From contig OZ020515.1 of the NCBI GenBank assembly GCA_963971425.1, forward strand, positions 14,214,291 to 14,278,290: a stretch of 64,000 nucleotides of DNA, in the 5' to 3' direction. The number at the start of each line of letters is the position of its first letter. The stretch's first letter is position 1. Positions 3,643 to 41,900 of this stretch are shown here, one piece after another. Source of the DNA: Bryoerythrophyllum caledonicum (lineage: Eukaryota; Streptophyta; Bryopsida; Pottiales; Pottiaceae). The notes beneath the pieces are model-generated. The model did no database searches, had not been told where the DNA came from, and saw only the letters and a program-made list of their open reading frames with translations. The position numbers were made by a program, and so were the translations under genes.

Positions 3643-6600
3643 TCAGTTCGGTGGCTTCTTGATAGTAAGCTCTGCCCGCAGATGAACAATACCGTCACGA
3701 AAATAGGGGGAGTCCTCAGCAATGAATTCCTGCCACTGCATGCCAAACAAGTTCCGGTACCCTACTGCTTTGCCACCAGTAAATACATAACTCCCTTTGG
3801 ACTTGGGCACGAACTCCCAGTTGGGCTTCATTCTTGCTGCGAACTCGTAGTCGACAGCAAAGCTCACGGAACCTTTTTCCTGTCGAACCAGTGTTCTAGG
3901 ATTAGAATTCAGCACCCCGGATCAATAGTTCACAGATAGAGACCGAGTCAATGAATAAGCGAAGTGGCAGAAACACTAGGACGCACCTAACAACATAAGA
4001 ACTTAACCTAGAAAATTATCCAACTGTCGGAGCAAATGAAATTATTACCTGCATCCCAAGGAAGAGTCCGAAGCATTTGCACTGGCCTTGTTGATCCAGG
4101 TTGCAATGAGCGGACAAGAAGAACCCTTGACCACCCAAATGAAAAGCCTGAGAATAGACGCGTCCTTGAGGATAGAGGGCACGACACTCGTCAATCTTCA
4201 AGTCTAAATAGACTAGGCACTGACACGATGAGTCAAAATCCACCACTTTCACTGGCCTGTACTTGTACGCCCGCTCACAGAAGCGTTTATGCATTGTCTC
4301 CTCCATGGCTAGCTGGCGTTGTCGGTGTGAAGGCTCCGCCTTGAAGAATAGCGCCTCAAGGACCAATCTGGATGCTAGTTCGTGTTCAAAATCAAAACAG
4401 GTCAATACCTTGCGAAGTTTCCTGCTCGACATCATAGGGAACCTGATAAGCCACACAAGCCGAGATCCCAAGACTTCCCGGCGATCCTCAAGTTTATGGT
4501 AATGGTGACGCGACCATCGTAAGGCAAAATCATAAACTGCGTCCTCACTGGCAACTTGTAGATCGTCACTCGCAAGCACTGCTTCCACTCCGGCAAGTGG
4601 TAAGCCCATGACGTCATCAATGAATCTGTCAAAAGAAAACCAAATATTAATTCCAGAGTAGCATCTTTACAGTGAATTCAGAACTTCTAAGCTGTAAAAC
4701 AGGACTCACTACTACTGTGTATCACTGGGCAGTGAACGAATAAATGTATTCGATTGTACTTTACTAGAGAAAAGTGATTTAACTGTGCAGGAGGAATCGA
4801 TATCCAATGAACGAAGTTTCAATAGAATCTGGGACACCAAAACAATGAAATCTAAGGTTCCTCATGAATCACTGATTCATAGAACAAGCAAATAACCAGT
4901 ACAAGCATGAACACCCACCGCGTGATGTCTTTGTAGCGGTTCGCCAGGTAAGTTCTGGCAGCATCCGTCAGAGGCTGAACAGCTTCTGCAAGGAGAATGC
5001 TGGAAGGAAGATCAAGATAGAGTAAAGCAGACTCCGACGTCATGGGCAGGTTCCTGAGCAATCGGCTGCAGTGACGCATACAAGTAGCCACCTCATATTT
5101 ATCAGCCGCCATCAGCACGTCGAGTACAGTGGAGGGGGTATTAGCCTGAACCCTTCCACTATACATAAACTGAAGCAGATCCATCAGTGGCGTTTCCTCT
5201 GCAAATAAAAATCCAGTCCAACGCAGCAATTTCAGGGGCAAACAGTAAATAACTTCATATTTCAGACTGCACCCATCACAGTTGGGAAGCATCCCATTTG
5301 TAAACTAAAGCAATTACGGCCAATCAACAAAGTCATTGGTCGAGAACTTCCACTAAAGTCATTGGTCGCGAGTTCTCACCTGCTTGAGTGATCCGAAGAG
5401 TAACATCGCGTTGCTCAGACTCTCGCATCCCATTAGAAAAGAGCTTCACAGAAAAAATAGAATATGATGATCAGAAAATAAGAGGCACGTCAAGGCTATT
5501 GTACCGTCTTACAGCAGGGAAATGCAGAACGTGATACTCTTTGGTGAATAACACAAAAAGTTCTGGAGTGGAAACCATAGAAACCAGAAACGACATAATT
5601 CATAATAAGAGGTTTGCAAAATAACCTTATAAAAGTAAGGGCTCTTGGCAGCCAAAATGGCAGAACTGATGTGCACTGTCTTGCTCCTCATAACAGAAGC
5701 TGTATCCATGTTCCAAGATCCAGAGGATGTCCCACCGTCCTCCCCTGCAAAGTCTACTCACGCACTAACTCAGTTCATGACAAACATTCCTTGGGCCATA
5801 ATATGCATCCCAAAGGAAATATTCAGGCCTAGTTGTTTTGGAGCTGAAACCATCCAGAGAGCCCTGTCAAGATCTACTAGTCTTCATTACATCCCGAGAA
5901 GGGCTTGCTTACAAGATGGTCGACAAAACCCGATAAAGATAACCAATACTAAGCAAGAAGCACCAAAATCTTATTTTTTCATAAGTACAAAATACGATGT
6001 TTATTTCTCAACCCTAAACATGGACCTTTATATTCATGTAATCATCTGAAAAGTGCCAGATTAGTAGTACACAGTTTTATCACACCAGCGAAGTAAAACT
6101 AGTGAAAGTACAATTGTTACAAATGCAGGAGAGGATAGAGAATTAACCTCCTTGTCCCATAAACATGTTATTAACTCCATATGGCTCTTCCATCATGGCT
6201 ACAGCCTCTTCATCGGCTTCTTGAGGTGCTACATCGTCACCATACATGACCTGTTCCTCTTGTCCTTCTGCTAGTTGAGTTTCCGGAGGATCGCCTAACA
6301 ACTTCGCGACACCTTCCGCAACTGTCATAAGAGTACGTTAGTCACCAGCTACACCATGAAATCAAAGTTGTAAAACAGCACATAAAATTTCCTGGCTTTT
6401 GCATATTCACACTAGAACAATCAAATAAGTGATAGGAAACTAAATTGAAACAGATGAATGAGGAAAGTTTCAATTCAGTCCATTTCTACATGACGGCCGT
6501 GCACTACATACGGATTCATCACCAACGATAGTAATTGCACAACACAAGCCTGATAGGGATTATTTCAGCTACTTCAACGTCACAGCTATCCCACAGCAAA

Positions 6601-10985: not shown

Positions 10986-11504
10986 TTAACCCTTAAACGA
11001 CGGAGCCTATGACCGTGGCATCAATCTAAATTTTCATCAACTATATGCTCTAGTTTCTCATCAAATATGAGTGGATTTTTTTAAAAAAAAATTCAGAGAT
11101 GAGATCTTATGTCTCAATCATGTTACAAAAATCACAGAATTTTTTTGTGGAAATTTGAATTTATTGTGATTTTTTGAAGAAAAAGTGAAGAAAATTCATA
11201 TTAAATACAAATTATGCTGAAAAATTCTGAAATTTTTACCAAAGGTGGACATTATAGTGACAAAACTTGTGGTGTAAATGAAAGTTCCATGTTTGGCTAA
11301 AATTAGAACCACGGTTATAGGTCCAAGTTTAAATTGCAATAACTTATTCAATTTCACGTATTTTTTTCAATTGCAATAACTTGTTCAATTTCATGTATTT
11401 TTACGTGCAAGGAACTCTCCTTAAAAAAAATTGGATGAAAAAACAGCTGTCCAACAATGTCATCCGATAAGCCAATTTCTGGCTGCTTCGGCGTGTAAGG
11501 TTAA
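10986..11504. mobile_element. TTAA-flanked 0.52-kb element, family B termini
   Basis: The left end is TTAACCCTTAAACGACGG then AGCC. The right end, reverse-complemented, is TTAACCTTACACGCCGAAGC. Imperfect inverted termini bordered by TTAA differ from the CCCCTAAAGG termini of family A. No coding potential. It is probably a second MITE family using the same TTAA target. Confidence 0.5.
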
Positions 11505-28278: not shown

Positions 28279-28773
28279 TAGTATGGAACTACTCTCTCTT
28301 CTTGAGGATAGACTAACGGATATCATTTATACCCAGGTGATACCAACTATTTATCTCGGAGAGAAGTAGGAGATATTTCCAAGGAAGAGGATTTAACTTG
28401 GAACATGGACAACACTATTACTTTTATAATTTAAGTTACCTTATCTATACTTACATTACCCATTCAAGATAACGGGTCATTATACTGGAATAAGTAAATC
28501 AGCTTAAAAATCATAATAGTACTCCAAAAATAGTTTCAATTCAAATTTAGTTATACAAAAAAAATCTACTTTCAGAAATGGCTTTCACATTGCTTGCAAT
28601 CATATTTTATAAACGTTTTCTTTCTAAATTTAAATGTTTTTAAAAAAATCAACCATCTTAGATACATTTATATTTTAAGGATTTTTTTTACAAAAAGCAA
28701 TTTAAATTAGCTCTAGATCATTTCCTGATGTTTTACTAAAAATAACAACTCTAAAGAGTCTAACCAATGTGTC
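28279..28773. other. AT-rich DNA between the pogo element and the LTR-type repeats
   Basis: Nothing coding is recognised. It contains CTTTTAAAA-like and T-run phrases similar to 23400-24200, and so could be the far flank of the same AT-rich repeat into which the pogo element inserted. Confidence 0.35.
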
Positions 28774-28875
28774 GTGTAAAGAAAGATTGATAACCACAAC
28801 AGATCGAGATTCCTAACCAACATCAAATAAACAAAAAATATACACTAAAACAAGTATACGTAATACACCCTCAAG
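28774..28875. repeat. 102-bp direct repeat, copy 1 (LTR/TRIM-like)
   Basis: GTGTAAAGAAAGATTGATAA ... ACCCTCAAG matches 29209-29310 at about 94 percent by eye, same orientation, 333 bp apart. Trimmed by one or two bases it begins TG and ends CA, as LTRs do. Either the two copies are the LTRs of a tiny (TRIM-like) element or a partially duplicated LTR end. Confidence 0.55.
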
Positions 28876-29208
28876 GAAAGAGATGCAAATCACACGTAGT
28901 CAAGCATCCTGCACTCCACGAATGGAGAATCAACAATTGCGAGCGGAACTAGAGAATGTGGAGCCTTTACTAATGACTAACAGTCACTTACAAGCAAACA
29001 CTCACAAAGCTTGACTTGACAAAGACGTCAAGTCAAGGACAAGTGCGGCGCTATACGCACACGCGCGCAACCCTAAGTGGATGAAAGTCATCCATGGATG
29101 AATGGGGTGCCATATGTCCCTAAACACGCGTAGATTAGTAACAACTAACCTACACTAGGATACTACGATACGGAGAGGCCCTTGATGCCACATCCCGTGA
29201 TAGCTGTG

Positions 29209-29310
29209 GTGTAAAGAAAGATTGATAACCACAATAGATCGAGAGTCCTAACCAACATCAAATAAACAAAAAATATATACTAAAACAAGTATACATAATA
29301 CTTCCTCAAG
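29209..29310. repeat. 102-bp direct repeat, copy 2
   Basis: Second copy of the repeat at 28774-28875. On its right, read on the minus strand, is the purine tract CTAGGGGGGACACT, which looks like a polypurine tract preceding a 3' LTR. This copy may therefore be the start of the 3' LTR of the minus-strand retrotransposon to the right. No matching LTR is found at that element's other end. Confidence 0.5.
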
Positions 29311-29677
29311 TGTCCCCCCTAGCGGATAAAGAGACCCTCTATGCAGCTAGGACCATACAACACTAACAAGTCTAAACGCCACGGTGATGATGCTGCAACA
29401 ACTGTATGCATCCAGTCGAAAATGTCGCCCGTCGCCGAATCAAAAGGATATGGAGAAGTAACAAACAGAGGGTAGGTCGGGTGCAATGTGAGCCCTATCT
29501 TTAATCGCGTTAGGAAACTTTGTTGCTAATCCCTTGGTGAATCTCCACGTTGCCTATCCCTGAATCAAAAACATGAAACTTCAACTGAATGACAACGCAC
29601 CATATAGTGACAAGTCCACGAGGAAATCAAGCCGTTTCATTGGGTGCAACGTGGCTCGAAGACCTCTGACAACAAGG

Positions 29678-30347
29678 TCAAGTCCGATCCCCACGTGGTA
29701 GAATAGAGAGGGGCGGCATCAAGCAAGCCATATGCCATCCACGTTGACAACGGTCGCATAATAACATGGTAGCCGCACCCTTCTTCTCACCACACACAAA
29801 ACACGGAAGACCCTGTGGCACAACGGCCAACTCTGGATGTACGAAGCCATCAATGGGCATATGGCAGAGCGCGCAATTTTTGGAGTGCTCCCAACACTCC
29901 CAACCATCTTTGCCTTTGAGCAACAAGATGCCATTGGGCAACACATCCTTCACACGAATGATGGTGCGCCCGGCCTTGACGTCCAACGTCACAGGCGACT
30001 CACGCTGCATATAAACGTAATCTCTAGTGGAGAAATGCCGCAACTGAGGTCGGTAAGTGCCACTGCAAATGCGAGCGTACCGTAACCTGTCGCGGTGCTG
30101 AGCGATGGATAAATTCTCCATGGGCCATGGCCATTGGCATGGCCCATTTGAAGAATTCCGCCCGGTCACGCAGACGCTGTATCCAGACCTCTGGATCATC
30201 CAAATCCACCACTGGAGCTAATTTCTCCCGTATAGAACTGGGTAAAATTGGCTCCCGTCTGTACAACAACTAAGACGGACTGGAAGCGGCCAAAGAAGTC
30301 TGCCGGCTAAACCGGTATTCCATGGCAATCCATGGTATCATGAGATC
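29678..30347 (-). pseudogene. Retrotransposon integrase C-terminal region with PHD finger
   Basis: After the integrase core, the minus strand encodes a stretch with EKLAPVVDLDDPEVWIQRLR (30200s) and then, after a frame change, QHRDRLRYARICSGTY and TLDVKAGRTIIRVKDVLPNG. This is the position where gypsy elements keep an SH3-like fold or chromodomain. It ends with a cysteine-rich module: CFVCGEKKGA, LLCDRCQRGWHMACLMPPL, then LPRGD and, past a stop, PCC. The spacing Cys2-Cys2-His-Cys with LLCD.C.RGWH..CL.PPL is diagnostic of a PHD finger, which binds histone H3 tails. The final Cys pair is disrupted: a stop sits where the sixth Cys is expected, two codons after an apparent Trp-to-Arg change. An upstream CALCHMP pair may belong to a second zinc site. 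Confidence 0.75.
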
Positions 30348-31184
30348 TCAATCACGCTGGCCACCCTGAAATAATCCATACTTCCGTAGTCGGCGCTTGA
30401 CGGTCTGAACCACACGCTCCGCCAAACCGTCCGCTTCCGGATGATCCGGAGAAGTGGTACGGAGGTCAATTAAAGCTTTGGTGCACAAAGGCTCGACAAC
30501 ATCAAGGAACACACGCCCTAGGTCAGTCAACACCTCAGCTGGGGCTCCAAAACGAGCCAGCACCCGGTTAAGGAATGCCATGGCCGCCAACTCCGAGGAG
30601 TTCTGTGGTAGTGCCACAAGCTCAATCCACTTGCTGAAGTGCTCCACCATCACCAACATGTACTTGGCTCCACGTGGGGTGACAACAAGGGGCCCGGAAA
30701 AATTCAGAGACCAATGGTAGCCCAAACCCATGATGGACAAAGGCTGCAACTGTAGAGACAAGGTGTTGAAGTTGGATTTGACTCGATCACAGACTTCACA
30801 CCGTGAAACGTACGCGGCGACCTGCTGATACATGTTGGTCCACCAATATTGGCTGCGCAACATGGAATGTATCCGTCGTACACCAAAATGACCAAGGTCT
30901 TCGAGTACCTGCCGTACCAACAAAGCCCTCTGATCCGGCGTGGGAACTATGCACCTAGTCCCATCCGGCCACACGCGAAATAGAAGGCCATTTTCCCAAC
31001 GAAACCTCGCTATCCGGTGTCCAACTTGATCGCGCTCCATGGCCGAAAGAGCGGGCGGAAGTGTGCCATATTGCAGCTTGTGCAAGACTAGATCGTCTTC
31101 CCACACGTCGCCAACGACTTGGGCCCTATCCGGTTCCTCATCTGTTGCCAAATCAATCAACATCGATGCGGAGCCAGACATCAA
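30348..31184 (-). pseudogene. Ty3-type integrase core (damaged active site)
   Basis: The 278-aa open frame contains an H2C2 zinc-binding region (HFGVRRIHSMLRSQYWW, then CEVCDRVK) and the catalytic core. The first acidic position falls in SLNFSGPL, where family members read D and this copy N. The second is LTDLGRVF, where the usual GREF has become GRVF. The Glu context HPEADGLAERVVQ is preserved. The function would be insertion of retrotransposon cDNA. The Asp-to-Asn change should abolish activity. Confidence 0.85.
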
Positions 31185-31189
31185 GGTGA

Positions 31190-31820
31190 GGTAAGCCGCT
31201 GCATGCCACCCCGGGACTGACTCCCTGTCGCCGTCCCCATGTCACCTGGCAGCAGCCAAATCCTCCTCCAATGGACTTAGATTACGAATTAGTCCATCCG
31301 CATCCTAGTTAGTGATGCCCGCCCGGTGCACAACCTCAAAATCATACTCCTGAAGCAACAAAGCCCACTTGGCAAGCTTGCTAGTAAGCTTGTCAGACTC
31401 CATGAGCCACTTCAAAGGCTGGTGGTCGGTCACCAACGTAAAACGCTGCCTATACAAGTAGGGCCTTAAATGAGCTATGGCCCAAACCGCTGCTAAAACT
31501 TATCCCTCATATGACGAATAGTTGAACTCCGCGTTGTTGTTGCTCCTAGAAGCAAGCGCCACAACGTACTCCCGTTCCTCATCATCCTTTTGAGTCAACA
31601 CGGCTCCCAATCCTATCACACTCCAAGTTGTGTGCAAGTAGAAAGGCCGTGTAGCATCTGGACGCCGAAGTACAGGTGCTGGACCGAGCTTCAGCTTCTA
31701 AATAGCAAACGCCTGCTGCTGCTCCCATCTCCAAGTCCATGGCTGATCCTTCTCCGTGAGGATAGTCAACGGCTTGGCAATCAAGCTAAAGTTCTTGACA
31801 AATCGGCGATAGTAATTTGC
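31190..31820 (-). pseudogene. RNase H domain of the retrotransposon, decayed
   Basis: Recognisable minus-strand segments are LHTTWSVIGLGAVLTQKDDE (the first Asp of the usual TD(A/W)S is lost), VLAAVWAIAHLRPYLYRQRF, LVTDHQPLKWLMES and WALLLQEYDFEVVHRAG. Stops interrupt the frame after SSYEG and after HRAGITN. This is the standard tether-type RNase H following the reverse transcriptase. Confidence 0.75.
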
Positions 31821-32702
31821 CTAGCCAAGAAAAGCTCTGAGCCGTGACACATCGATTGGGGCCAAAATCTTTTGCAGTGCGTCAACCTTCTCTTGCTGCA
31901 CGCCAAGACCTCCTGGAACAATCATATGTCCCAAGTATGGCAACCGATCATGGAAGAATTTGCATTTGCCATGGTGCAAGCGCAATCCCCACTGCCGTAG
32001 CCTCTCAAACATCGCCTGAAGATGCCTCACATGCTCTTGTGGGCTGCTACTAAAAATGATAATATCATCAATGTAGCATCGGGCAAACGGTAAACCGGTC
32101 AACACCCGGTCCATCACCCTTTGAAACTCCACGGGTGCGTTCTTAAGGACAAATGGAAGAAACTTCCAATGGTAGAGTTGATCTCTCCTATCTAGATCAG
32201 CTCCCCAGAACGCGGTCTTCACCCAGTTGTCCACTATCAATGATAACTGGTGGTATCCGAACCGCAAATCCAGAGTACTAAATACTCTAGCGTGGTCCAC
32301 CGCATCAAACAACTCCTATGGCGTGGGCATGTGATACCGATCCGACTTGGTCTTACGATTGACCGGCCTATAATCACCATACATCCGCTTCTCCGTCCAG
32401 TTTCCAAAGATGACCTTCTTTGATGGCATCACTGTGGCATAAGCGTACTCGCCGTTGGAGAGTTCAATCAAGATGGCCTCCAACAACTCTTGACAACGGG
32501 TCTGAACACCAACTTTCTCAGAAAGACTGAGCTTGTACGGTCGTCGAAAGATCGGGTGGTCGTCCTCTAACTGAATATGAATCGGTTTGCTTCTATAGCC
32601 CTTCAAATCTTGGACACTAAAGGCAAAACAACTACGATACGAACGTATAAACGCTCGTACCCTTCGTGCGTTGGCAGCGGTAAGATGTGGCCCCAAATCC
32701 AA
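31821..32702 (-). pseudogene. Ty3-type reverse transcriptase
   Basis: Two open stretches in one frame are separated by a single stop (near 32313). They show IQLEDDHPIFRRPYKLS, DYRPVNRKTKSDRYHMP, FSTLDLRFGYHQL, APVEFQRVMDRVL, the catalytic box CYIDDIIIFS and LPYLGHMIVPGGLGV. The YIDD motif and the first Asp (STLD) are intact. The region ends in ISRLRAFLG-like sequence as in other gypsy polymerases. Confidence 0.88.
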
Positions 32703-32808
32703 AGGTCAATCATCAAACTCCGTGGTCTCCTTCTCTACCGTAGAAGACTCACTACGTACCGACACGGCTGGTGATTGCTACTTGGTAGCAGAGAAGGCAT
32801 TCATGTCC

Positions 32809-34185
32809 CTAGACCGCCATCTCGCAGAGATCGTGATGATAAAACTGGGAAAAGATATCATGAGCATCCTCACGGCTAAAGTCCTCTATGAAGGCTGCAA
32901 AGACACGCTGAGCACGAAGCTCCTCAGCTGCATGCCTCTTCAAACAAAAAAGAAACTCCCCTTCCTCGATCTCTGTGAGATGTAGCATAGCTGTCCCCTG
33001 ACCATCAGAGTCTATCTCCAACACGCGTGGATGGTCACTCGAACGGCGCTGCGCGGCGAAATAGAGGCCACATACCCAAACGAGGGTGTTGAGGTCAATG
33101 GCTTGACCTAACAAATAACGGCGTTGGCCCTCAGAAAGATCCGGTGCGGTGGTGGTGCCTGTCAAAAAGCCCATCGCCCGCTCCCTCTCATCCGTAGAAG
33201 GCTCCTCGTAAGTTTGGGAAGAAGAATCCCAAACCATGCTCGGACCACGCGTCTTGAAGGCAAAAGAGCCCGGATAGCACATCAAGGTGGGAAATGCCTC
33301 CCGAGTAAAATCAACGCGGTTGACCACCGCCAATGGTGGCTCATCATGATTGGTAACCTCCGTAGATACACGGTGGTTGTCCAAGATGTCATCGACGTCA
33401 CGGCGCACGGGCCGTTGCACTTCAACAAGTACAGAAGTGAGCGTCATGGATGATGCCTTGTTGGTCCAAATCCAACGTGGCCGATGGACGTAAGATCTCA
33501 ACGCCGCAACATCAACAAATGTGGGGGGACCAAGAAGGTGATGGCTGTACGCCCCATCGTCACGCACCTTTGTCCATATATCTCCCAATCAGGGGTACAT
33601 TCTCAAAAATGTACCCCGGTGGTCTCGATTGGTCGGTAATCCACCACTGGATGAGCCTGAGCAAATCTGCAAAGAGACCCACCGTGGATCATCCAAGCCA
33701 CGTCCACAGCTCGCCCGTGAATGGCCTTGGCAAGGCTATCCGACAAACACCAAGTCCACTTGACCTAAGCGGCGAAGATCATCCTCACTGATCAACGTCA
33801 CATCACGTGGTAACTTGCCAAAACACCCCCGAATTGCAGAAGGTGGTGACTGCTCCGGATACAACGCAAGAAGACGTTGAATGTAATGGTGAGCGGCACG
33901 GTTGGATGCAAAGCCACTATCCACGTGGATATACTGTCGTACCTTAAGTCCGGCCTCTAACACAGCCGCGAGCCTCGTACCGATATCGGCAAATAGAGCC
34001 ACAAGGGTAATACCCTCATTCGATGGTCGCCACTGAATAGTATGAGCCAACAACGGAGTGGAAGAATCCACTGAAAGCTGTGGAGCATCAACAACGTCCA
34101 CAATCTCTCCACTCCGTTGAGTGAGTTCCAACGGCGTCCCTAACGGCGGAAGCAGATCCTTGCAATGACGTGCAGGGATTGCCAA
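32809..34185 (-). pseudogene. C5 cytosine DNA methyltransferase captured by the retrotransposon
   Basis: The minus strand encodes, in canonical C5-MTase order: motif I ITLVALFADIGTRLAAVLEA (33967-34012; SAM-binding F.G.G, with Gly replaced by Asp), a VDLVFVG strand and catalytic motif IV PCQGHSRA..GRGLDDPR (PCQ at 33727-33735, the preceding Trp codon now TAG), motif VI PGYIFENVPLIG (ENV at 33596-33604, read in a shifted frame), motif VIII YVHRPRWIWTN (Arg-x-Arg), then FPTLMCYPGSFAF, motif IX ERERAMGF and motif X RRYLLGQAIDLNTLVWV. About 350-400 aa separate motif I from motif X, normal for a compact enzyme. Two compensating frameshifts bracket motif VI. The domain sits between protease and reverse transcriptase and is part of the element. 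It would methylate cytosine in DNA; which strand context or target is unknown. Confidence 0.88.
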
Positions 34186-34345
34186 TGGTGGGTGCTCGCG
34201 TGAATCTTCCTCCTAAGACATAAATGCATATGTCTCATCCAAAAGTGAAGAACCACATAGCAAGTATGATGCTATAGCACTGCACCCAAACATAGCGTTC
34301 GTTGTCGAAGTCACCGACCTAGCTACAAAGACCACGGGGATGAGC

Positions 34346-34640
34346 TCATTTCCCGTGGTCTTTGTAGCTAGCGCGGTGCTGACCTACCAAAATGTCATAG
34401 TTGGTGGCGCCACTCACAGCGCACTGGAGGGATACGTGAGAGAACAAAGGAACAGATCCTATGCCGAATAATAACTGCAACGGATGTCGGGTGTAGCCGA
34501 TGGCCTTCTCTGTGCCTCCCACCGATGTAACAATCGTAAATGGACAAGGCTCGAGGTACGAAGCATTGAGATCCAAATCCTCGGCTAGCTGCTTGCCAAT
34601 CATCACTAGTTGAGCTTCAGAGTCCAACATAACACGAAGG
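34346..34640 (-). pseudogene. Retropepsin-like aspartic protease of the retrotransposon
   Basis: MLDSEAQLVMIGKQLAEDL corresponds to the usual DSGA active-site strand, with Gly replaced by Glu. The C-terminal hydrophobic loop NYDILVGQ is in the expected position about 80 residues on. It would process the gag-pol polyprotein. The active-site change argues this copy is inactive. Confidence 0.7.
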
Positions 34641-34806
34641 GGGAAGCTCGGGTGGGGCTGCCGTAAGTACGACCAACCACCATGACACCGTTATCATTTA
34701 CGAAACGTACCACCCCTGGACGCATATTGCGCCGTTCATGTGCCGACCAGGCCGCAACGTCAGTCAAATAAGCCACTCCAGAGATAAATGATTGATCCTT
34801 GGAGGA

Positions 34807-36600
34807 CTAATCCATAAGTGTGGAAGTGGCATTGGCCTCAAACGCCGAAATAGCCTCCGGCGCCAACTTGGCCCGCATTGCCACCACTTCCTCTTCGGTG
34901 GATGGAGCTGTCACTACCTGCGACACCTCCAATGATGGCATAGGCACCTTGCCCTCCAACATACTACCCGCCAAGTGGAATACACCGGATGGTAGAAAAT
35001 TCGGTGTCAGAAAGTCTACATCGGCAAACACCGACAACCGCAACACCTTGTACGCCAAGGAATGTACGGCATTCATATGAGTAGAAGAAATTGGTGATAT
35101 GGTAGTTAAAACAGGAGCGGCACTAGGAGTAGCCGCATTTGCAATGTCAAAAGACAACGGTAGCCGCGGCTGACCGATGTGGTCCAATACTCCCACATGG
35201 CGTGGACGACCACTAGTTCCCGGCACACTAGATGATGGTGGCACTGCCTGAGCAGTGGTCTGAGCATGAGTGGCGACTGCAGCCACAACCTCTTCGTAAG
35301 CACCATACAAATATGCATCCATGGCTGAGGACGAACCACGACTCTTCACCGGAGCTCGTGCATTCACCACTTGTCCCAAAGAAGCATTCGCACTTAACTT
35401 CTTCTCCAACTCCGCTTCTTTGGTCTCCAAATCCTTCACCCGTGATGAACCCGGTCGCTTCTTCGGGTGGAGAACAAAGCAGTTTTCATCACTATGGCCG
35501 GACTTGCCACAGTGAGAACAAGTAACCGGCTTCTTTTCCTTGCCCGCAACCTTCTCACCAGACTTGGCCGCCTTGATCTTAAGCTTCACCTTTCCCTTCT
35601 CTGCCCCTTTCTTCTTGGAATAGTTAGGGTTTCCTTTGGGGTGACTGGGTTCTCCACAAACCCAGCAATGTTCAACCTTTTCAAGTTGTGCCTCCGCCAA
35701 GCTACTCGTCGCAATTGCAAGCTTTTTAGACTTAGGAGCGTCCATCAATGGCGTGACAAAGTCTGTGGCCTCGGACATGCCTAGCGCTCTATCAAGTGCT
35801 TCCACCTCAACAAATGTCTGAGCTAAACTTGCGTTGGCGTGATAATAAAAAAGAAGACGGAAATGATCAAGTCCACCATCCTCTTGTCCAACTTGGAGAT
35901 AAAAATCTTCACAAATTAGCCCTCCATGAAGACATCACCTGCCTTTGCCGCCAACCGCGCTAATCGGATATACATAGTGTCTGGCGTGTCCTTCTTTTCA
36001 CGGCGGAAATCCTGGATGCACTGCGTCTGATCACGTCGGAATCCCCCGTACCTCACCTCCAAGTGCGCCATGAACCGCGGTAGAGGGTCATCGACTGGTG
36101 GCGGACCGACGGCCACCAATGCCGCCCGCGTGGCGTGGGCCAAACGCAACATGGCTCCTATGCCGGACGCCTCATCTACAAGGACAATGTCCTTCTACTT
36201 GGAATTCTCACTAAAGGAGACTCCCTCCACCTTGAGCTAATCGGTAAAGACCGGGACACGAGCAACGTCGCTCTCCTTGAACGCAGTCACCAACTCCACC
36301 CGGTCGCGCCAGTAATCCTCATTCGGTCACAATTCCTCCGCATGCAGTACCGACCACTTTCCATAGGTCTGGAGTGCCTTCAGCTCCAAATGTTGGGGCA
36401 AAAGCTCAAAAGCGTACCAGTCGTTGAACGACAGTGAACGTTGACGCATTTCTTTCATCCATGTCTGGAAATGGAGCCACCAATTGGGTAGGAAGATGCC
36501 CCCAGCCTGACCTGAGAAACGATTACGCACAACCTGGCGGTGATTGTCCTCCATGTCGTCAAACGTGCCCACACTCCAAACTCAAAGCCTACAGCCGATA
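34807..36600 (-). pseudogene. Retrotransposon gag with zinc knuckles, decayed N-terminal part
   Basis: The longest frame (34807-35805, 332 aa) has one perfect CCHC knuckle CSHCGKSGHSDENC and a degraded one CWVCGEPSHPKGNPN lacking the last Cys. They are set in Lys-rich linkers, followed by a Ser/Pro/Ala-rich region. Upstream pieces in another frame (36572-36327 and 36152-35916) contain NDWYAFELLPQHLELKALQT and PLPRFMAHLEVRYGGF, the alpha-helical retrotransposon-gag segment. Gag packages the element's RNA. Frameshifts near 35.85 kb and several stops break it. Confidence 0.75.
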
Positions 36601-36700
36601 TCCAACGCCGAAATAGGCTCAAAAGCCTCGTCGGTATCTGACCTTGGTCCAAAGTCTGAAGCCGGTGCACTCTCCGGAGAATCTAGTGTGGAAGAACGGT

Positions 36701-37091
36701 AATATCGGCTTCTCGTACCCACCATAAACAAAAATCCCGCGGGTAACTATCTACGAGTGCTATTTAAAGGGTATCGGTACGGACAGACAACCTGCACATG
36801 CAAAATCACCAAGCTATGTGCTTTAGCGGTCATCACCTATGACTAATACAGGTTCAACCACATCCCCCCACATAAAAAGTCTTGGCGGCCATGAACCGGA
36901 GTTCATCACTATTGTACCCTATCACAATCTACTACAACAAGAAGTGGGGCCACCGGAAAACATTGGCAACAAGCTCGCAACACCGGGGAGGTACTGCACA
37001 AGAATCTAGAAAATCAAAACCGGATCCTCTCCCCCAACAACATAAAAGCGGAAAAGACAAGGAGTCAGAGCCACTGGCACACGTCTGCAGT
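36701..37091. other. Sequence between the two retroelement blocks
   Basis: This may include remains of the 5' LTR/leader of the element to the left (minus-strand GGGGGGATGTGG near 36870; TATTTAAAGG-like TATA near 36770), but no second LTR copy confirms it. No gene is supported. Confidence 0.35.
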
Positions 37092-37440
37092 CAGGGTTAC
37101 CAATCCCACGTCTTTGGGGGTCTGAGAGCATCCTATGATGTCATAAAACGAGGACGTCCTGACGTCACGTCGGACCGACCGTTCGGGGGGAGTAAAATGC
37201 ATTTACGGAAGGCCCTAGTAAGTTTTTTGGACTGTCGGATTCGACAAAGTGCCATGCGGACAGATCGCAGCCGTCAAATTGCGATAGACCGTCTGATCTG
37301 TCGCTGCCATCGGGGCGATCGGACGGCACCTCGGCCGTCCGCCTGATCGGACGGCGAGCGGACCGATCGGACGGCCTCGATTTGATCGCGCGGGCGCGCG
37401 ACGGCCGTGGTGGTGGTCGGTCTCATGGCCGTCCACCACC

Positions 37441-38658: not shown

Positions 38659-38858
38659 NNNNNNNNNNNNNNNNNNNNNNNNNNNNNNNNNNNNNNNNNN
38701 NNNNNNNNNNNNNNNNNNNNNNNNNNNNNNNNNNNNNNNNNNNNNNNNNNNNNNNNNNNNNNNNNNNNNNNNNNNNNNNNNNNNNNNNNNNNNNNNNNNN
38801 NNNNNNNNNNNNNNNNNNNNNNNNNNNNNNNNNNNNNNNNNNNNNNNNNNNNNNNNNN
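38659..38858. other. Assembly gap (200 N)
   Basis: Exactly 200 undetermined bases, a conventional placeholder length, fall within the TIR element between its coding remnant and its right inverted repeat. The true distance is unknown, and the scaffolding across it relies on repetitive sequence. Confidence 0.99.
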
Positions 38859-38969
38859 CGGCTGCGATCTGGCCGCGTGGCACTTCGTTGAATCCGACGG
38901 TCCAAAAAACTTACCAGGGCCTTCCGTAAATGCATTTTACCCCCCCCGGACGCTACGTCCGACGTGACG

Positions 38970-41900
38970 TCAGGACGTCCTCGTCTTAGGACGTCCTAGG
39001 ACGCTCTCAAACCCTCGAGGACGTCGGATTGGTAACCCTGATGAATCATTGTCTTCTTGTTGGCTTAGGCTTGAATCATCTCCTGACATGTCCTCAAAGC
39101 AATATCTGCCATCTCTCTTCTTGAATGCCTTGATTCTCTTGCCAGCTACTGGAATTCTCAATAGCGTTCCATCTAACTCACGAAGTGTATAAGTAGCATT
39201 ATTATGTACTTCCACCACTACATATGGTCCAAACCATCTACGTGCAAACTTTCTGAGAGTACTATGTTGATGCTCCAGAGTGCTATCAAACACTAATACC
39301 CAATCCCCAACTCGAATCTGGTTTGTCCTCAACCGATGAGTTCTATCAAATCTGGCTTTGTTCTTCAACCGCGCTATCTTCATCCTTTCGATGGCCACAT
39401 TGTGGTCTTCAGGCAATCTTTCCAATTGCTTTATGCGGAGTTCTAATAATCTTTCTGTGCTAACTCCATCTTCCCAATCCAAAAACACCCAAGTAGGCAA
39501 TGAGTCTTCTACAGGCAATATTGGTTTTTGTCCCATCATAAGCTCAATTGGCATATAGCCAGTGACAGTACTATGTGTAGTCCTGTCTGCCCACAATGCA
39601 AATGGTAGAAGTCTAGGCCAATGCTTTGGTTTTCCTTTACAGGCTTTGACAAGTGCGTTGATGATTGGAGGATGTCCTCGTTCACTCTTGCCATTAGCCT
39701 CAGGGTTATAAGCGGTAGTTAGCCTCAGTTTCACACCATACCTTTGAAAAAAACTTCTAGCTTCAGCTGCATTTAATTCTCCACGATCTGCTCTCATTCT
39801 GCCAACACTACCATATCTGCTGAAAATGTCTTCTAGGATGAACCTACAAATTCCTTCGGTAGACTTAGTTCTCAAGGCTCTACCTTCTACAAAATTTGAG
39901 AGTTCTTCCCTTGCCAAAACAAGGTACTTCATACTCCACAAACCTGATGGCATCGCGACTAAGTCAATTACCCATTGAAAATGTATGGCAAGTGGGTAGG
40001 TTGGATGCAACTCATCTCTGTATCTAATTTTTGATTGGAGTTGACAATCAATGCATGAAGCTACAAATTCTTCCACATCCTTGTACAAACCCTTCCACTA
40101 ATACCGTTCTTTGATTTTGTTGTAAGTGGCCCAAATTCCTCTGTGTCCTGCCCAAAGTGTGTCATGAAATTCTTTGAGGACTTGATTTTTGGTATCAGTA
40201 TCATCAACCACTCTTAACGGCATCCCATCTTTCCTCTTTGGCCTCTTCCATAACAATCCATCTCTCAAAAGATAACCATAAGACTGGTGTCTAATATCTT
40301 TATATGTCTTGTCTGACCAGTCTCTATGTTTCTTCAAAGTGCTGAGATATAAGCCAATATCCTTCAGCCTTCCTTCAAATAGATCTACCTTGAAAGATAA
40401 ATCACCATCACTTAAGCCCAACCCATCAAGTGTCATAACATAACCATAATCCCTTTCCTCATAGTCCTCTCCAATCTCTTGTGCCACCATCTCTTCCTCG
40501 CACATAAATCTGGCTCTTGATAACATATCTGCCACTGAATTCATCTTGCCAGTAATATGTGTTAACACAGGATTCAGTGATCTGATATATGCTATCCATC
40601 TCAGCATTGCAATATCTGGAGTAGAGCAATTAGCCACCATTCCGAGTAATGGTAAACAATCAGTCTCAAGCACAACATCAGCACCAATTAAATAGTTTCT
40701 TTCTGCCTTCAATGCTGTAAGTGCCCCTAAAAGTTCTCTCTTCACTTGTGGATACGCTCTTTGACGTTCTGTGAGAATTCTTGCTCCAAATCTTATGGCA
40801 TACCTTCGTCCTTCTACATCATCTTGACCAACAGCCCAACCTGTAGCAATTGGACTGGTATCAACTGTTATAATGACTGGTCTACCACAGTTGTAATCCA
40901 CTTGCTTCAAAACTGGTGGAGACATCAAAGTTTCCTTCAAGCCTTCCATGGCTAACTCTTGTTTTTGCCCCCACTTGAATTTAATCCCTTTCCTCAAAAG
41001 CTTGTACAACGGATCAGCAAGATGAGCAAAATGTGGAACCCATATTTGGTAGAAGACACAAGCCCCTAAAAACCTCCTTACTTCAGTGATGCTACCACAT
41101 GGCTTCATCCTAGAGATAGCATCTACTTTCTCAGGGTTAGGTTTTCTGCCGTATACTCCACACAAATGACCAACCACAATAATCTCATCAACACCAAACT
41201 TGGACTTCTCTACGGATAATGTCAAGTCCACCTCTCCAAGTCTGTTTAAGATCATTTCCACATCTCTTATGTGGTTCTAGACAAATACTCTGCAACCATC
41301 GTCATCCGTAGTCAAGTCCTTGATTTCTTCTTTGCAGCCTTTAATGGGAATATCATCTACAAAGGGTATAGTTTTCTCAGGCACAAAATCCTTGAGGATC
41401 TGGTTCATCGCGTTTTGCATATGCGCCACCGAATTAGTGGCTCCCTGGGGCAATGTGCACATTCTAACAAGTCCTAATGGAGATTTCATGGTAGTCAGAT
41501 CTCTGCTTTCGTTCGCAAGTTGGAACTGATCATAACCAGAATATAAGTCTCCAATGGAATAGATGGCATGTCCCGCAAATGCTTCAGCAACCTCATCCAC
41601 AATTGGCCCTGACCCTTTGTTTCTAATAGTAACCTTATTGGCTGGCTGCATATCTTGTATAAATCTAAGTGCACCAGACTTCTTTGGCACTGTAAACCAA
41701 CGGTTGGAGTATGGAGCCATTGAAGGCTCAAGTATACCCATCTGCATCTTCTCTTTCAACAAATTCACCAACTTATGAAGTAATGCTCTTGGCACTGGTA
41801 TAGGCTTTAAGTCCCACGGCACATGAGGAACTGTAAAAATCACCATTGGTACAACCACACTAGGATGGACACATCCAATTTCTTCTGGTGAAGAAGAAAA

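Follow-up and report, generated by a model that had tools for sequence, protein, structure and literature searches.

In 2018, dinoflagellates and a single charophyte alga were reported to harbor retroelements encoding a cytosine methyltransferase (MTase), acquired on separate occasions (PMC5890265), and the streptophyte and dinoflagellate cases have been cited as LTR Copia and DIRS (PMC12344493). SymbioDIRS-Dnmt3 and SymbioLINE-Dnmt resemble the moss element described here in being retroelements that carry cytosine MTases, SymbioDIRS also in its split repeats, but they use a tyrosine recombinase or a LINE endonuclease, reside in dinoflagellates and represent independent captures according to the paper (PMC5890265). 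The closest known system is KnitGypsy-Dnmt3 of Klebsormidium nitens (de Mendoza et al. 2018, PMC5890265), with which the moss element was compared by published description. The two share the Gypsy domain set, a DNMT3-related MTase, DIRS-like repeats and purifying selection on the MTase, and the legend to Figure 4c of that paper gives the same split-repeat layout for the Klebsormidium element (PMC5890265). By contrast, the MTase of KnitGypsy-Dnmt3 sits in the Pol ORF (PMC5890265), while that of the moss element shares ORF1 with Gag and protease and precedes a leaky-type stop codon; and the acquisition of the former was placed in the K. nitens lineage (PMC5890265), whereas relatives of the element studied here occur in moss, Sphagnum, liverworts and Closterium. 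The main text on KnitGypsy-Dnmt3, its supplement aside, contains no occurrence of "PHD", "readthrough" or "target site" (PMC5890265), and in the titles and abstract openings of the open-licence literature, subscription papers aside, we found no description of the element in mosses or liverworts, of its stop codon or of its PHD finger. Set against KnitGypsy-Dnmt3 as that main text describes it, what is new is the occurrence in land plants, the encoding of the MTase with Gag ahead of a leaky-type stop, a PHD finger, target duplications of 4 bp and a joint phylogeny of MTase and reverse transcriptase (RT) across bryophytes and Closterium. With such elements abundant in a moss, and active there in recent times, the role of transposon self-methylation becomes testable in bryophytes, and it is this access to the question in land plants that gives the element its clear interest.

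The DNA analyzed here (the window, 64,000 nucleotides from the moss Bryoerythrophyllum caledonicum) contains, at 37091-28770 on the minus strand, a decayed Gypsy-type retroelement with DIRS-like repeats. It belongs to one of at least two families of MTase-bearing element found in this moss genome, of which 437 Mb in 894 contigs were scanned: family B, the window's own (L012, L013, L017), and a related family A (L009, L010, L011, L014, L018, L019). By blastn, the window element is 89.0% identical to L012 over 34352-29116 and 78.5% identical over 37091-34377. Its 5' end is cut off at 37091, where an inverted repeat of 183 bp has its edge. The two arms of this repeat lie at 37091-37273 and 38859-39041 and are 88.5% identical, and a gap of 200 Ns (38659-38858) lies beside the repeat. 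The remains of ORF1 (Gag, protease, MTase and tail; 32781-36746, from tblastn of L012 ORF1) match in four pieces and three frames over 36746-32830, and include a Gag CCHC piece at 35682-35407 and an aspartic protease remnant at 34376-34660 (82% by tblastn). The 3' end of the protease is lost in this copy, L012 positions 4566-4648 being unmatched at a blastn break, and a small inverted duplication lies beside the broken end at about 34342-34378. A broken DNMT3-like C5-cytosine MTase domain follows at 33013-34032 (tblastn to the L012 MTase), and the leaky-type TAG between ORF1 and ORF2 is retained at 32778-32780 in the context AAG TAG CAA TCA, read from 32783 on. The remains of ORF2 (RT, RNase H, integrase and PHD finger; 29630-32777, 86% and 82% to L013 ORF2 by tblastn) comprise an RT core with one in-frame stop at 31920-32396 (Pfam RVT_1, 1.5e-23 on 31821-32315), the integrase zinc-binding domain and DDE (rve) core at 30438-30938 (Pfam), and a PHD finger with a broken 3' end at the integrase C-terminus, 29663-29815 (Pfam PHD, 1.1e-7); stops interrupt the RT, RNase H and PHD finger. 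Downstream lie repeat B1 (29205-29310), repeat A2 (28871-29200, 78% to a sibling A1) and repeat B2 (28770-28875), the 3' terminus of the element, all on the minus strand like the coding remains. Elsewhere in the window, a second decayed Gypsy element at 38970-41666 on the same strand is distant (its RT is 26% identical to that of the first, and the family-B query has no match there), and a repeat found beside a copy on contig C7 (L023, 3260-4186) recurs at 10986-11376 with 76-79% identity.

A sequence-only reading of this DNA had assigned 32809-34185, a span that also covers a linker and the C-terminal tail, to a C5-cytosine MTase between the protease and RT of a Ty3/gypsy element. The C5-MTase motifs on which it relied, I, IV (PC), VI (ENV), VIII (RxR) and IX-X, were all found on the minus strand in the order given. 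In a frame-tolerant tblastn search, the MTase of the open-frame sibling L012 matched 34032-33019 over residues 1-338 of 340 with 79% identity (E 1.5e-173), which excludes a chance resemblance. The placement also holds, with the protease remnant upstream and the RT, RNase H and integrase downstream. The PHD finger behind the integrase, the leaky-type stop and the split repeats had no place in that reading. The domain itself is damaged: an in-frame TAG (33738-33736) stands immediately ahead of the catalytic Pro-Cys-Gln, whose Cys codon, located by pattern position at 33730-33732 on the minus strand, is still TGC; the frame slips and then returns between motifs IV and VI, with PGYIFENVP in another frame; and motif I is substituted. 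With the MTase split into pieces, none of nine window ORFs matched PF00145 in a Pfam scan at E 1; both sibling MTase domains scanned passed the Pfam cut-off (E 2.6e-13 and 6.8e-15). We regard the identity of the window MTase, and purifying selection on the enzyme, as nearly certain.

Copies with full reading frames reveal the intact layout. Their ORF1 (1,353-1,371 aa) contains Gag with CCHC knuckles, protease and MTase, and their ORF2 (1,041-1,047 aa) contains RT, RNase H, an H2C2 zinc domain, a DDE integrase and a C-terminal PHD finger, with RT, RNase H and DDE integrase in the Ty3/gypsy pol order (Pfam on the ORF2s of L013 and L009). ORF2 is in frame with ORF1 and separated from it by a single TAG, which is followed by CAA CCA in all six family-A copies listed and by CAA TCA in all three of family B. 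UAG-CAR-YYA is the leaky-stop signal of tobacco mosaic virus, and both TAG-CAACCA and TAG-CAATCA fit this sequence signal. Of the 30 RT loci that rank nearest to the family-B query, 29 have TAG-CAATCA and one has TTG at the stop position. Across the genome, at least 245 family-A junctions (with a pattern that had TAG built in) and 226 family-B junctions were found, with none for the reversed-pattern controls; when the codon was left free in family B, 98 of 100 listed sites (226 in total) had TAG, two had TTG and none had TAA or TGA. One family-A copy (L015) has an open frame of 1,710 aa that runs from the MTase into the RT. The fifteen best listed database relatives (P0001-P0015; 1,228-1,451 aa) end at most 190 residues past motif IX, and no RT motif was found in them. 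Judging by the junction sequences, the MTase is probably translated together with Gag, and ORF2 by readthrough of the TAG. Lying upstream of the stop, the MTase should accompany every round of Gag synthesis, and this placement predicts its presence in the particle at Gag stoichiometry.

The order A1-ORF1-ORF2-B1-A2-B2 was found in all three copies followed to both ends, and ordinary LTRs, with one direct repeat per end, were found in none of them. Repeats A and B measure 372 bp and 233-239 bp in family A, and about 367 bp and 106 bp in family B; the termini read TGTC...GACA, and the inner B1/A2 junction reads GACA-GC-TGTC in both families. In one copy the A repeats agree at all 372 bp (100%), and in two others they are 99.7% and 98.6% identical, indicating recent movement of the elements. 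All three followed insertions are flanked by 4-bp target duplications (CCTC, TAGT and AGCA). The element therefore resembles DIRS/PAT-type retroelements in its split direct repeats (A-coding-B-A-B), whereas these have a tyrosine recombinase and make no target duplication, and the moss element has a DDE (rve) integrase, TGTC...GACA ends and 4-bp duplications. Thus, DIRS-like repeats are here combined with DDE-type integration, a combination that bears on the origin of DIRS-like repeats.

The PHD finger on the integrase scored best against PHF12 and CHD4 chains, then one fission yeast protein, followed by KDM5B, PHF21A, KDM5A, UHRF1, ATXR5 and BAZ2B among others. Chromoviruses are Gypsy elements with an integrase chromodomain, and the moss element resembles them in having a histone-reader-type domain fused to the integrase C-terminus, but in its two ORF2s and three whole relatives Pfam found a PHD finger and no chromodomain. 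Several of these proteins read unmodified H3 tails, so that the integrase of the moss element would be steered to inactive chromatin. We propose a model in which most ribosomes would stop at the TAG, yielding MTase in Gag-like amounts for packaging into the particle, and occasional readthrough would add polymerase and integrase. The packaged MTase would then methylate the cDNA of its own element, either ahead of integration or in the course of it, the PHD finger would steer insertion to chromatin with unmodified H3K4, and new copies would arrive already resembling the silent chromatin of their landing site. In Physcomitrium, the host DNMT3 makes de novo CHH methylation (PMC9516144), and a pre-methylated insert could thus feed into host silencing. 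We consider cDNA self-methylation the likeliest selected role of the MTase, with a confidence that falls somewhat short of even. Several observations weigh on it. CpG depletion was looked for in 29 sibling loci, and the mean observed/expected ratio (0.82) was not below those of the window flanks (0.75 and 0.64). Decay of the window copy was mostly C-to-T or G-to-A (116 of 189 changes) and was highest at CHG (29 of 183 sites, against 19 of 256 at CG and 50 of 793 at CHH), pointing to host CHG methylation rather than the element's enzyme. The Klebsormidium enzyme produced no methylation in yeast, a result termed inconclusive by its authors (PMC5890265). The departures of motif X and PCQ from canonical DNMT3 count against the preferred explanation as a whole.

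An alternative is that the MTase works once integration is complete, in company with the integrase complex and its PHD finger, and sets a silent state in the chromatin of the insertion site, leaving the cDNA unmarked. DNMT3s act on nucleosomes, and the likeness of the PHD finger to PHF12, CHD4, KDM5B and other proteins, several of them readers of unmodified H3, would fit such an action. The MTase and the PHD finger are, however, encoded in different ORFs, and the MTase would have to enter the nucleus; we consider this action unlikely. Another possible substrate is RNA, with the MTase methylating packaged genomic RNA (m5C) or the tRNA primer in place of DNA. Gag-like amounts and packaging in the particle, as expected of an MTase upstream of the stop, would suit that role as well, and so would the absence of CpG depletion. 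Against it, the nearest enzyme families act on DNA, DNMT3A scoring 97 bits in the profile ranking and the tRNA enzyme DNMT2 only 37 bits; this makes RNA methylation a still less probable role than action at the insertion site.

For the element enzyme, profile, fold and tree all identify the DNMT3A/DNMT3B catalytic domains as the nearest relatives. The sequence-only reading had seen a writer of methylation carried by the element, and this part stands; the accompanying view that the enzyme looked bacterial or viral in type does not, since all three comparisons place it with DNMT3. It had also remarked on the absence of PCN, correctly, as motif IV reads PCQ. This motif is what M.HhaI has, and a derivation from a bacterium or a DNA virus could also draw on the folds of 4dkj and M.HhaI, which trail DNMT3 by only 2.6 to 3.2 Z units, and on a tree in which support for placement with DNMT3 is moderate (90/92) and the DNMT3A branch is long (1.52). 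By contrast, the profile ranking with its bacterial control and the tree favor DNMT3, and a search of IMG/VR with an alignment as the query gave 82 relatives, of which 80 were kept, with 25-62% identity over short stretches and no close relative among them. With one sibling sequence as the query, none of four candidate stretches in IMG/VR was a relative. The best of 384 open frames (200-700 aa) from the 80 loci scored 75.7 bits, against 95.1 for DNMT3A, although the elements' own motifs had served to select these loci. We therefore hold a DNMT3-type origin of the element MTase to be very probable and a bacterial or viral one very improbable. DNMT3A and DNMT3B have PCN and, in motif X, GRS, whereas the element enzyme has PCQ and GQA at about 24% identity; of the 116 relatives that span this position, 113 have Gln after the catalytic Cys, in place of the PCN of DNMT3. 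Because of this PCQ, the enzyme is termed DNMT3-like, not DNMT3. Pfam scans of the MTase pieces, the ORF2s, the pieces of the window and three relatives in full length listed neither ADD nor PWWP. That the elements had recently captured a gene of their host was considered and rejected: one candidate exon in the genome (L059) has PCN and shares 35% identity with human DNMT3A, against only 23-25% with the enzymes of the elements, and another (L060, past motif IV) is 37% identical to DNMT3A and matches an element enzyme in the expected place over only 23 residues. Separately, the assembly contains a free-standing bacterial-type C5 methyltransferase of 370 aa (L001, G000:C14:16014858-16018817), whose closest solved relative is M.HhaI; it adjoins a frame that looks transposase-like by eye, in a 22-Mb scaffold, and represents contamination, misassembly or transfer.

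The MTase shows constraint between subfamilies of family A. Its dN/dS between L009 and L014 is 0.04 (dN 0.067, dS 1.50; 50 nonsynonymous and 158 synonymous changes), a rough value because a dS above 1 is near saturation; for the other domains of this pair it is 0.02 (RT-RNase H), 0.05 (integrase), 0.09 (Gag), 0.10 (PHD finger) and 0.11 (protease). Closer pairs gave 0.08 (L009/L011), 0.16 (L012/L013) and 0.32 (L012/L017) for the MTase, and L014/L018 gave 1.27 on only four nonsynonymous and one synonymous change, so that constraint in close pairs is weaker or without sign. Among 151 database relatives, the catalytic Cys is retained in 114 of 118 covering the site and the Glu of ENV in 116 of 119. 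A noncatalytic role for the domain, as a structural or regulatory passenger, might be argued from relatives in which the catalytic residue is lost (Cys in 4 of 118) or its surroundings are changed (PCL in P0047), but the retention of both residues and the dN/dS of 0.04 make this highly improbable.

The same enzyme recurs at the same place in sibling copies. RT loci were ranked by closeness to the family-B query, and the 30 closest were taken from 121 scored (4,780 candidates), the window copy being among the other 91. The MTase lies directly upstream of the RT in 29 of these 30, is full length in 27 and stop-free inside in 18 of the 27; in the thirtieth, a 1.26-kb insert pushes the MTase region beyond the flank examined. 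Open frames of at least 1,353 aa accompany 18 of 123 scored PF00145 matches (1,054 candidates); in one of the 18, a TGA was flagged within the match. An insertion of an MTase gene into the window copy alone, the outcome that would have undone the sequence-only reading, is refuted by the 29 sibling loci and by more than 100 scored MTase matches in the genome. Both outcomes that the sequence-only reading had named as its own refutation were thus looked for, on the closest copies, and neither was found. Its constant position across siblings, together with relatives elsewhere, indicates instead that the MTase is a long-kept part of the element. Our preferred explanation, which as a whole we hold to be reasonably probable, takes the window copy as a dead member of a family of autonomous moss retroelements that moved in recent times and have a DNMT3-like MTase as a standard protein. 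Three further DNMT3A-like matches (G000:C4:29812591, G000:C642:10176 and G000:C2:28152453, with open frames of 1,398, 1,408 and 1,150 aa) are perhaps a third MTase-bearing family. The assembly also contains two different plastid matK genes of bryopsid mosses (L026, G000:C821; L027, G000:C894) that are 63% identical over 325 residues; among named rows, one contig is nearest to Orthodontium (75%) and Bartramia (74%) and the other to Barbula (92%), so that two mosses may be mixed in it.

Two database searches, each with 7,999 candidates scored, gave at least 47 and at least 107 relatives, at least 151 proteins together. The named hosts among those listed are Marchantia polymorpha, Calypogeia fissa, Sphagnum fallax and Closterium, and most of the listed relatives come from metagenome contigs without a host name; one row labelled as a bacterial bin is presumably mis-binned, and the name Klebsormidium was not found among the matches listed, most of which carry no host name. 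The MTase occupies one of two positions, before the RT or after RT-RNase H. In P0032-P0035 it follows RT-RNase H and precedes the integrase, P0041 ends inside the MTase, and P0021 and some other database relatives have one fused ORF. Trees of MTase and RT for 15 elements (three from the moss genome and 12 database rows) largely agree: the second MTase position forms one clade in both (MTase 90/85, RT 100/98), and in both trees Marchantia groups with family A to the exclusion of family B (93/89 and 98/95). When DNMT3A is included, some deeper MTase branches differ from the 15-element tree, P0023 is placed differently, and the two rows that represent the second MTase position nest beside P0023 and P0021. 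The simplest reading of these trees would be one capture, joint descent and one relocation; horizontal transfer between hosts may also have taken place. More broadly, it is possible, if rather speculative, that the elements form an old streptophyte-wide clade with its own writer and reader, in which a DNMT3-like enzyme was captured once, was kept across moss, liverwort and Closterium with one relocation, would be made at Gag level ahead of a leaky stop and would methylate cDNA before insertion, with the PHD finger directing it to chromatin with unmodified H3K4. If this is true, a parasite would partly write the de novo methylation landscape of its host. Among the relatives, Glu replaces Pro before the catalytic Cys (ECQ) in P0021, P0023, P0032, P0037 and P0040, and Glu is found there in 12 of 118 covering the site. 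P0047, a metagenome protein of 1598 aa with RT, integrase and, by eye, a PHD-like end, has PCL in place of PCQ in its MTase and is a possible catalytically altered branch.
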